Source: Pelagibacteraceae bacterium AG-365-D07 | GTDB taxonomy: Bacteria > Pseudomonadota > Alphaproteobacteria > Pelagibacterales > Pelagibacteraceae | Assembly: GCA_003280005.1 (NCBI GenBank) | Contig: QCGH01000013.1 | Span: 1-37,717 of the forward strand | Length of the DNA: 37,717 nt | Reading direction: 5' to 3' | Shown here: piece after piece, positions 9,893 to 27,254 of the stretch | How the letters are laid out: every line of letters begins with the position of its first letter | Position numbering within the stretch: position 1 is the stretch's first letter | Notes under the pieces: model-generated | What the model was told of the DNA's origin: nothing | Database searches by the model: none | What the model saw: only the letters and a program-made list of their open reading frames with translations | Position numbers and translations under genes: made by a program

Positions 9893-10525
9893 ATGGTAGC
9901 TCACGCAATATTTTTTTATTTTTTTTCAATTATTGCAATCATATCTGCAATAATGGTTACAGCCTCAAGAAATACAGTTCATTCAGTTTTTTTTTTAATA
10001 TTAGATTTTATAAGCATTTCTTGTTTATTTATTATGATAGGTGCCGAATTTTTAGGAATGATTATGTTAATTGTTTACGTAGGTGCCGTAGCTGTTTTAT
10101 TTCTTTTTGTAGTAATGATGTTAAATGTTGCTCAACAAAAAAATCAATGGTTTGGATCTTCTAAAAGTAGCTCACATATTCCAATTGGTTTATTGGTAAG
10201 TTTAATTATTTTTTTTGAATTAATCATTGTTGTTGGTGGGTGGCAATATAAACCAGACCTCTTGAATTCTTCAACTATTACCGTATCCGAAAATATATCA
10301 AACACACACTCACTAGGTAATGTGTTATACACGGATTACATTCACTTATTTCAAATTTCTGGAATGATCCTACTTGTAGCTATGATTGGTGCAATAGTTT
10401 TAACTTTTAGAGAACGTGCAGGTTTAAAGAGACAAAGTTATATTAATCAAATTTCTAGAGAAAGAAAAGATGGCATTCAATTGGTAGATGTGCCTAGTAA
10501 AAAGGGAGTCAAAATTGATGTTTGA
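9893..10525 (+). CDS. nuoJ: NADH-quinone oxidoreductase subunit J
   Basis: NuoJ (ND6-type) is a membrane subunit beside NuoA, NuoH and NuoK that takes part in coupling quinone reduction to proton movement. The 210-residue protein has five predicted helices. The conserved third helix contains [28 protein letters not shown], including the mid-membrane Tyr and Gly residues typical of the family, and the fourth helix begins near residue 98. The C-terminal 40 residues are basic and cytoplasmic. The gene overlaps nuoK by 8 bases, since the nuoK ATG lies inside its last codons. Confidence 0.96.
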
Positions 10526-10829
10526 AATAGGGTTAGGTCACTATTTAACTCTTGGCGCAGTTATATTTACAATTGGTTTGATTGGTATTTTTTTAAACAG
10601 AAAAAATGTAATAGTACTTTTAATGAGCATCGAATTAATATTACTAGCTGTAAATATTAATCTTGTATCTTTTTCAATTTTTATAAATGATTTAAGCGGT
10701 CAAATATTTACTTTATTTATTCTAACAGTTGCAGCTGCTGAGGCAGCCATAGGTTTAGCAATTATTGTAGTTTATTTTAGAAACGTTGGAACAATAAGAG
10801 TTGAGGAAATCGATAAATTAAAAGGATAG
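10518..10829 (+). CDS. nuoK: NADH-quinone oxidoreductase subunit K
   Basis: NuoK (ND4L-type) is a three-helix antiporter-like subunit in the complex I membrane arm. Using the ATG at 10518 gives 103 residues, the normal size, starting [14 protein letters not shown]. An upstream in-frame codon at 10488 would add a basic extension that no NuoK needs, so I reject it. The two functionally important membrane glutamates are present, in [13 protein letters not shown] (second helix) and [15 protein letters not shown] (third helix). The start overlaps nuoJ by 8 bases, the same spacing as several other junctions in this operon. nuoL follows after 1 base. Confidence 0.96.
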
Positions 10830-10830
10830 T

Positions 10831-18573: not shown

Positions 18574-18574
18574 A

Positions 18575-18820
18575 TTGAGTATAACAGGATCAATTGTAAT
18601 TTTTGTTATAATTTGGTGGATTATTTTTTTTTCATTATTACCAATTGATGTTAATAGGAATAAAAAAAAAATAATTGAAGGAGAAGATCCTGGATCACCT
18701 GAAAATCCAAGAATTGTTAAAAAATTTGTATATACAACGCTTTTATCCTCACTATTTTTTTTAATAATATATTATTTAGTACATTATAATTATCTTAACC
18801 TAAGAAATTTTTTGATGTAG
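18575..18820 (+). CDS. small two-helix membrane protein, DUF1467-like
   Basis: An 81-residue protein starting at TTG, 1 base after the rnj stop. It has two predicted membrane helices (about residues 6-24 and 52-70). The first runs into the conserved-looking turn FSLLPIDVN, and a charged cytoplasmic loop with EGEDPGSPENPR lies between them. This resembles the alphaproteobacterial DUF1467 family, which is commonly found between the RNase J and ProS genes. The molecular role is unknown. No ATG is available upstream in frame, so the TTG start is likely. proS begins 8 bases downstream. Confidence 0.8.
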   Translation: MSITGSIVIFVIIWWIIFFSLLPIDVNRNKKKIIEGEDPGSPENPRIVKKFVYTTLLSSLFFLIIYYLVHYNYLNLRNFLM

Positions 18821-18828
18821 TTTAGGAT

Positions 18829-25465: not shown

Positions 25466-25520
25466 AAAAATACTTGTAAAATTCTTTAATAATTGTAAAA
25501 AATCGAAAAAAATTAAATCG

Positions 25521-25591
25521 CACACAGTATTTGGTTTTAAACCTCCGGTCCCAATTGGGCTATTACTGTGGAGGCACAACCGGGAAGGAAC
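25521..25591 (+). promoter_or_regulatory. candidate structured rpsB leader (S2 autoregulation?)
   Basis: The only GC-richer intergenic stretch, just before rpsB. Bases 25523-25529 (CACAGTA) pair perfectly with 25564-25570 (TACTGTG). Inside that loop are a possible CCC-AATT-GGG hairpin (25550-25559) and CCTCC (25542-25546). The latter can pair with GGAGG (25570-25574) just 3' of the stem, giving a pseudoknot. CCGGT (25545-25549) could instead pair with ACCGG (25579-25583), close to the ribosome site. rpsB leaders bound by S2 are known in E. coli, so feedback control of rpsB-tsf is a reasonable inference. The structure is drawn by eye without energy or covariation support. Confidence 0.55.
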
Positions 25592-26374
25592 ATGACAATA
25601 CCTACTATATCGATAGAACAACTGTTAGAAGCTGGTGTCCATTTAGGTCACAAGACTTTAAGATGGAATCCAAAAATGAAAAAGTATATTTTTGGAAGAA
25701 GAGACTCGATACATATCATAGACTTAACTCAAACAATAGAATTGTTTAAAAATGCTCTAGAAAAAGTATATGAAACAATTTCTAATAATGGAAAAATTTT
25801 GTTTGTTTCTACAAAAAAACAAGCATCAGAAAATATTGCATTAATAGCCAAAGAGACAAATCAATATTATGTTAATCATAGATGGCTGGGTGGAATGTTG
25901 ACAAATTGGGGCACCATTTCTAATTCAATTAAAAAACTTGAAGATTTAAATAAAAATTTAATTTCTGAAAATAGAGGTTTTACAAAAAAAGAATTATTAA
26001 AGATGGGTGCACAAAGAGATAAATTACAAAGGTCTTTAGGTGGAATCAAAGATATGAAAAAAACACCAGATTTAATTTTTGTTATTGATACTAACTACGA
26101 GTCTTTGGCAATAAAAGAAGCAATAAAATTAAATATACCTATAATAGCAATATTAGATACAAATTCAGATCCAGAGAATATTGATTTTCCTATACCTGGC
26201 AATGATGATGCTAGAAGATCAATAGAACTTTATTGTAATCTAATCAAGGAAACAATTAATAATGCAAAAAAAAATATTCCTACTGATGAAGAAACTAAGA
26301 TTGAAAAAAAAGTAGAAGAAAAATCAGATGATTTAGTAAAGACAAAATCGGTAGAAAAAAAAATACTAAATTAA
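25592..26374 (+). CDS. rpsB: 30S ribosomal protein S2
   Basis: Ribosomal protein S2, 260 residues from the ATG at 25592. That start is preferred over the in-frame GTG at 25568 because it gives the normal N-terminus ([20 protein letters not shown]) and has AAGGA a few bases upstream at 25585-25589. Conserved blocks include [54 protein letters not shown] and [14 protein letters not shown]. The last 35 residues are a Lys/Glu-rich tail. The gene starts a translation cluster rpsB-tsf-frr-uppS and is preceded by a candidate regulatory leader. tsf follows after 28 bases. Confidence 0.98.
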
Positions 26375-26402: not shown

Positions 26403-27254
26403 ATGAGTGATATTGAAAAGATTAAAAATTTACGACAATCAACAGGTGCAGGTTTTAAAGATTGCAATGCAGCTTTGAAGGAATCAAATGGTGATTTGAA
26501 TAAAGCGGCTGAAATTTTAAGGGTAAAAGGTATAGCAAAGGCTTCAAAAAAAATGTCAAGAGATGCAAAAGAGGGTGTTATCGTAGTAAGTGGAAATGAG
26601 ATTAAAACCTCTATGATAGAAATTAATTGTGAAACTGACTTTGTTGCCAAAAATGATGATTTTATAAAATTTGCAAAAGAACTTGGCGATATAAATAATA
26701 ATTGTTCTTCAGATTTAGAGAAATTAAACAAAACTAATATGTCGAATGATAAAAGCGTTGAGGAAAATTTAGTAGGATTAATTGCTAAAATTGGTGAAAA
26801 AATTACAATTGGTAAATTACGTACTATACAGAATGCTAATTCACAAAATTTTATTTACCAACATTCGGTGATTAAAGATAATGTTTCTAAATTAGGAGTA
26901 GTAGTAAGCTTGGAGACAAATGAAAAAAATGATCAAATAAAATCATTTGGGAAAAATTTATCAATGCATATTGCAGCTTCAAATCCAATAGCATTGAATT
27001 CTAATGAAATCAAAAATGATATTCTTGAAAAAGAGCAAGAATTAATTGCTGAAGAACTTAAAAATTCAGGTAAACCTGAAGAGATTGCAAAAAAAATAAG
27101 TTTAGGTAAAATTAAAAAATTTAAAGAAGATAATAGTTTAATGACTCAAGACTGGGTAATGGAGCCAAAAAAGAAAGTTAAGGATATTTTATCAGAAATC
27201 AACATCCCAAGTCTTAAAGTTAAAGAATTTGTGAGAATTAAAATAGGTGAATAA
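26403..27254 (+). CDS. tsf: translation elongation factor Ts
   Basis: EF-Ts, the guanine-nucleotide exchange factor for EF-Tu, 283 residues. The N-terminal UBA-like domain shows [19 protein letters not shown] and [12 protein letters not shown]. The EF-Tu-contacting [10 protein letters not shown] motif is at 78-87, and the two core subdomains follow with [10 protein letters not shown]. Length is normal. It lies 28 bases after rpsB, as in most bacteria. The stop overlaps the frr ATG by 1 base (TAATG), which leaves no room for pyrH, usually the next gene; see findings. Confidence 0.98.

Follow-up and report, generated by a model that had tools for sequence, protein, structure and literature searches.

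We present evidence that in SAR11, a group of bacteria abundant in the ocean, the leader of the rpsB-tsf operon is a functional RNA and not a spacer. It is the SAR11 copy of the rpsB motif described by Meyer et al. (2009), a known element rather than a new one, and it very probably adopts the fold of that motif and acts as an S2-responsive translational repressor, a response that we assign to it by homology. Our analysis also settles which of two pairings available to the leader is its pseudoknot. The original prediction of a pseudoknot-capable, cis-regulatory leader before rpsB was correct, and this part of it is borne out by covariation; the pairing that it favoured was over-read, and the element that it described is one already on record.

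Results and discussion

Location and elements of the leader

The leader was studied in a window of 37,717 nucleotides, the whole stretch of DNA that was analysed, from contig QCGH01000013.1 of Pelagibacteraceae bacterium AG-365-D07. It sits in the junction between dnaE and rpsB, upstream of the rpsB start codon (ATG, 25592-25594), with the motif directly 5' of rpsB and a distance of 69 nt from the start of P1 to the ATG (Table 1). A check of the sequence found all the elements named earlier at their positions, with the 7-bp stem P1 perfect. The GGAGG had been placed just outside this stem, but its first base, G25570, already closes P1; the remaining four base pairs of CCTCC with GGAGG could nevertheless coexist with the stem. 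The frame that follows rpsB is one that we take, from its sequence, to be tsf.

Table 1. Elements of the rpsB leader and its surroundings, in window coordinates
Feature	Position	Strand	Remarks
Promoter-like element (TTGT then TGTAA), after the dnaE stop	25474-25498	+	Putative; pattern written post hoc
P1, 5' arm, CACAGTA	25523-25529	+	Perfect pairing with 25564-25570; covariation
P2 hairpin	25533-25543	+	25533-25536 with 25540-25543; changes on both sides in 3/4 pairs
CCTCC	25542-25546	+	CC at 25542-25543 is the 3' side of P2
Pseudoknot, 5' strand, CCGGT (J2/3)	25545-25549	+	In 110/110 leaders; compensatory variants in one SAR11 genome and in other groups
P3 hairpin, CCC-AATT-GGG	25550-25559	+	Weak support
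P1, 3' arm, TACTGTG	25564-25570	+	Perfect pairing with 25523-25529; covariation
GGNGG block (GGAGG here), between P1 and the pseudoknot strand	25570-25574	+	Conserved
Pseudoknot, 3' strand, ACCGG	25579-25583	+	8 nt upstream of the start codon
rpsB (ribosomal protein S2), presumed regulator and target	25592-26374	+	ORF; protein matches in 115/147 family genomes
tsf (elongation factor Ts), presumed next operon gene	26403-27254	+	ORF; 28-nt gap

As judged from this one sequence, the structure of the leader is not above chance, and it is the composition and the conservation that are unusual. When the intergenic region was shuffled 2000 times with dinucleotides preserved, 28% of the shuffles gave a 7-bp stem and 9% a stem together with a 5-bp pseudoknot. 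Single-sequence folding was discarded as a test of the leader, given a fold energy not beyond chance (z-score -0.10) and a minimum-energy fold that lacked the 7-bp stem P1. The G+C content over 25519-25591 is 51%, as against 28% window-wide, and a value this high is reached by 0.6% of 73-nt stretches.

Conservation and covariation in SAR11

A search with the rpsB protein returned 116 matches in 115 of the 147 genomes of the family, the window's own included, at identities of 61-82% (the window's own excepted; two of the matches are partial). We take this family to be SAR11 on the strength of a second search with that protein, in a collection whose records carry names: of the 80 loci kept, the best 47 are titled Pelagibacteraceae, Pelagibacterales or Ca. 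Pelagibacter, and the remaining 33 are mostly from named alphaproteobacteria. Leaders were taken for 110 of the 116 matches (G027, G064, G071, G079, G136 and G144 were left out), with one genome, G060, contributing two of them, and omission of four duplicates yielded an alignment of 106 distinct leaders, hereafter A1.

Covariation across relatives had been set beforehand as the test of the proposed structure, and the leader passes it. In A1, six of the seven P1 pairs and three of the four P2 pairs have changed on both sides; 93.1% of cells are paired in P1 and 83.2% in P2. When the partners were slid by one to three columns, pairing in A1 fell from 91.8% to at most 52.0%, and the covariation of P1 and P2 among the 106 distinct leaders exceeds both the shuffles and these slid controls. 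The signal from P3 is weak: all 110 leaders have a stem of 2 bp or more, and 48 of the 110 have one of 3 bp or more, against 28.7 expected from shuffles. CCGGT and ACCG are both present in every one of the 110 family leaders. The four G columns of the GGNGG block are likewise invariant in A1, and GGAGG is found in 31 of 31 t44-type leaders, a search which itself required GGNGG. With the exception of its first G, which lies in P1, this block has no supported pairing partner among these leaders, and we regard it as a candidate protein contact.

Identity of the pseudoknot

Comparison of sequences from several groups identifies CCGGT/ACCGG as the actual, conserved pseudoknot. It had earlier been cast as a competing pairing, a role that does not agree with the compensatory variants that it displays both in SAR11 and in other groups. 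In the family leaders its pairs are nearly invariant (96.8% of cells paired in A1; two of the pairs have eight unpaired cells each, which trace to visible one-column shifts), and hence this alignment neither supports nor opposes the pairing. In the named SAR11 set, ACCGG is accompanied by its exact partner in 46 of the 47 Pelagibacteraceae or Pelagibacterales loci, and the 47th (L271, from the uncultured Pelagibacteraceae AG-447-O23) carries a compensatory double change, CCTGT/ACAGG, at 354-358 and 388-392. The covariation of the pseudoknot within SAR11 comes from this one genome. In this named set, 46 of the 47 SAR11 loci and 31 of the 33 others were parsed by script, and the three that were read by eye all have paired strands.

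Other members of the class show the joint changes CTGGT/ACCAG and TCGGT/ACCGA. The class search gave 86 matches, 81 of which were examined; left out were G000 and G009, which belong to the same family, together with G184, G230 and the second match of G210. A strict form of the 3' motif is present in 56 of these 81 upstream regions and missing in 25, and it has an exact partner in 53 of the 56, the partner being missing in three. Among the t44-type leaders, comprising the 30 best matches and E. coli K-12, the architecture of the rpsB motif precedes rpsB in 31 of 31; the exact reverse complement of the 3' strand is present in 29 of them, as GGGGT/ACCCC in 28 and CGGGT/ACCCG in one. We refer to the 30 matches (L148-L177) as Gammaproteobacteria on account of their t44 match and their likeness to E. 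coli, E. coli K-12 being the one named member of the set.

A count of pseudoknot pairs on a second, model-fitted alignment (A2) was dropped because the loops of most of the other leaders fall into insertions there; in its place, each sequence was tested for pairing by itself, with shuffled loops as the control. This control covers only the sequences matched by the SAR11 model, namely 57 leaders from 93 sources. A matching 5' strand, with at most one G-U pair, is found in 55 of the 57, against 17.0 expected from shuffled loops, and where the aligned 3' strand is other than ACCGG, 14 of 15 leaders keep a matching 5' strand, against 4.4 expected from shuffles. The two non-matches are a one-base alignment shift (L194) and a loop that is empty in the alignment (L220).

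The pairing of CCTCC with GGAGG, which had been favoured as the pseudoknot, fails when tested for compensatory changes. While 83.0% of its cells over all leaders are standard pairs, its third pair is non-standard in 72 of 105 leaders, with four cells that have changed on both sides; its second pair varies on one side only, and most of the cells that do pair are either invariant or G-U. Moreover, the CC of the CCTCC belongs to P2, and the E. coli leader retains GTGGAGG with CCTCC being absent from its loop. We attribute the standard pairs of CCTCC/GGAGG to G and C residues that are retained for other reasons.

Relationship to the rpsB motif and t44

Meyer et al. 2009 (PMC2704228) place the rpsB motif between dnaE and rpsB in Ca. 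Pelagibacter ubique and describe it as having P1, short P2 and P3 elements, and a five-bp pseudoknot between J2-3 and a strand 3' of P1. The leader under study lies in the same type of locus, with a junction of 126 bp as compared to 129 bp in Ca. P. ubique, and has the same P1, P2 and P3 and a five-bp pseudoknot; from that text we infer that CCGGT/ACCGG corresponds to the exact five pairs of the paper. The features of the rpsB motif found here are the position before rpsB, the covariation of P1, the P2 and P3 elements (the latter weak), and the five-bp pseudoknot. Literature searches for the motif gave Meyer et al. 2009 and one further paper, which mentions rpsB in a different context.

The two best Rfam matches of the leader are RF01815 and t44 (RF00127), both of them below the cut-off: RF01815 at 28.5 bits (E=3.7e-4 in a 201-base search) against a gathering score of 40, and RF00127 at 22.7 bits (E=0.0089) against one of 44. 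At gathering thresholds, Rfam returned only two tRNAs in the window. The gathering score of 40 bits for RF01815 is a threshold for inclusion in the database and not a structural feature. It is reached by none of the 147 family genomes, the best of which attains 39.5 bits, and it thus missed every SAR11-family genome searched even though the motif was discovered in that lineage. At E<=0.001 and with stricter filters, RF01815 matches 82 of the 147 family genomes; the window's own genome is missed at this E-value in whole-genome searches. In the class sample, 175 of 289 genomes match at E<=0.001 and 75 of 289 exceed the cut-off. Rfam types RF01815 as an sRNA gene, although the motif is a cis leader.

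A model built from SAR11 only recovers 29 of the 30 other class loci previously found by RF01815 (E<0.06), one of the 29 by a shortened match, and misses L120. E. coli is scored by this model at E=0.27, and 36 of 93 sources gave no match to it at E<=1. In the window's genome it found one site and no second, the next best match having E=5. The location of the leader, this single site, and the conservation of P1, P2 and the pseudoknot with compensatory changes are direct observations. A 35-base match on contig C8 falls upstream of P1.

With the E. coli rpsB-tsf leader (t44/tff, RF00127), the SAR11 leader shares P1 with ..GTGGAGGC..AAC and the pseudoknot, GGGGT/ACCCC in E. coli, directly before rpsB. 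The two differ in how far the pseudoknot lies from the ATG: 24 nt, with a GAGG core, in E. coli t44 and 8 nt here.

Spacing to the start codon

This difference extends beyond the two genomes. The pseudoknot lies at a median of 8 nt from the start codon in SAR11 (110 of 110 leaders parsed) as against 16 nt elsewhere in the class (70 of 81 parsed, including at least six, at 0, 1 or 7 nt, that look like parsing errors and were kept in). A Shine-Dalgarno-like core between the pseudoknot and the start is present in seven of the 110 SAR11 leaders, the window's own being one of the seven, versus 58 of the 70 from other class members. The named set gives a median of 8 nt and a core in 1 of 46 for SAR11, versus 17 nt and 26 of 31 for the other alphaproteobacteria. 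By its position, the 3' strand of the SAR11 pseudoknot would appear mostly to occupy the place of the Shine-Dalgarno sequence, a modest feature of SAR11. The idea that the Shine-Dalgarno loss is specific to rpsB was dropped, as cores are rare across the genes of the window (6 of 35, rpsB included); hence, the loss may be lineage-wide and not regulatory.

It is possible, albeit doubtful, that SAR11 possesses a compacted, minimal form of S2 autoregulation devoid of a Shine-Dalgarno sequence, in which the pseudoknot would replace that sequence and mask the start region directly, unlike the E. coli operator. This compaction is the sole point that we consider worth follow-up: the short spacing between pseudoknot and start offers a compact system for testing the self-repression of S2, a process whose mechanism in E. 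coli is described in a review as unclear.

Proposed function and alternatives

According to the same review, excess S2 in E. coli represses rpsB-tsf via the leader, with the help of S1, and the operator excludes the ribosome-binding site. Control by S2 is, via this review, demonstrated in E. coli, whereas in SAR11 it is posited by homology only. We propose that the 5' leader of the rpsB-tsf mRNA would fold with P1 capped by the short P2 and P3, and with the CCGGU of the junction pairing with the ACCGG downstream. Free S2 in excess of the needs of 30S assembly would bind this fold, S1 helping in E. coli, and the bound S2 would block translation initiation at the rpsB start codon; this repression would lower S2 and, via the shared mRNA, EF-Ts. 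The binding of S2, the repression and a need for S1 are all presumed for SAR11 from homology. Given its position at -13 to -9, the SAR11 pseudoknot strand might directly mask the landing site of the ribosome. Such direct masking is not transferable from E. coli because, according to the review, the ribosome-binding site there lies outside the operator and the mechanism is unclear. As the downstream genes are nearly contiguous, control reaching tsf and perhaps further, including frr-uppS, is possible.

The leader might instead be an RNA structure that stabilises or enhances rpsB translation, through protection of the 5' end or S1-mediated recruitment of ribosomes, and not an S2 repressor. The presence of a Shine-Dalgarno core in just 6 of the 35 window genes would suit this role, as a structured leader could aid initiation. 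However, the homologous E. coli leader is, according to the review, a site of repression by S2, and a conserved fold at the ribosome site would be expected to hinder initiation; we hence consider this role unlikely. Still less probable, in our estimate, is a two-state switch in which CCTCC/GGAGG alternates with CCGGT/ACCGG and toggles access to the ribosome site. The window sequence allows either pairing, with bases common to the two, and the proportion of standard pairs in CCTCC/GGAGG, along with the both-sided changes at one of its four pairs, could be taken in its favour. Yet the alignment data that break its third pair and leave its second pair to vary on one side lend no support to switching between the two, the CC at 25542-25543 pairs with covariation in P2, and E. 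coli has the GGAGG with no CCTCC in the loop. Finally, the closeness of the pseudoknot 3' strand to the start codon in SAR11 might suggest that only the ribosome-binding site and the region around the start are conserved and that the RNA has no structure. This was checked and is ruled out by covariation, namely the both-sided changes in P1 well upstream and the paired changes in the pseudoknot, and we give it practically no credence.

Promoter and gene neighbourhood

The pattern TTGN..TATA/TGTA, which was written post hoc, occurs in 94 of the 110 upstream regions of the family, where shuffles would give 9.8; scans for E. coli consensus promoters found nothing above chance. Because a promoter-like element precedes P1 in these 94 leaders, the rpsB mRNA probably starts shortly before P1. 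The dnaE-rpsB junction had been said to stand out among otherwise short intergenic spaces, and most other gaps in the window indeed measure -20 to 36 nt, with 35 ORFs taken as genes and bases 1-170 left out. Of the longer gaps, that at 1436-1786 has two tRNAs inside it, and an ORF at 10488-10829 takes up most of that at 10526-10830. The gap at 18574-18828 (255 nt, before 18829) contains a short TTG-started frame at ~18576-18821, by eye coding for a membrane-like small protein, and is therefore probably not a true intergenic space.

The gene for UMP kinase, pyrH, is usually found between tsf and frr. It is absent at the tsf-frr junction of the window (27254). TIGR02075 (pyrH) scored over its cut-off in none of 38 family genomes (37 at no less than 95% completeness and the window's own at 85%), versus 10 of 14 control genomes, and among the papers listed by a literature search none dealt with UDP synthesis in SAR11. 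The weak matches to TIGR02075 are mostly frames of ~370 or 400 aa, which are probably other amino-acid kinases.
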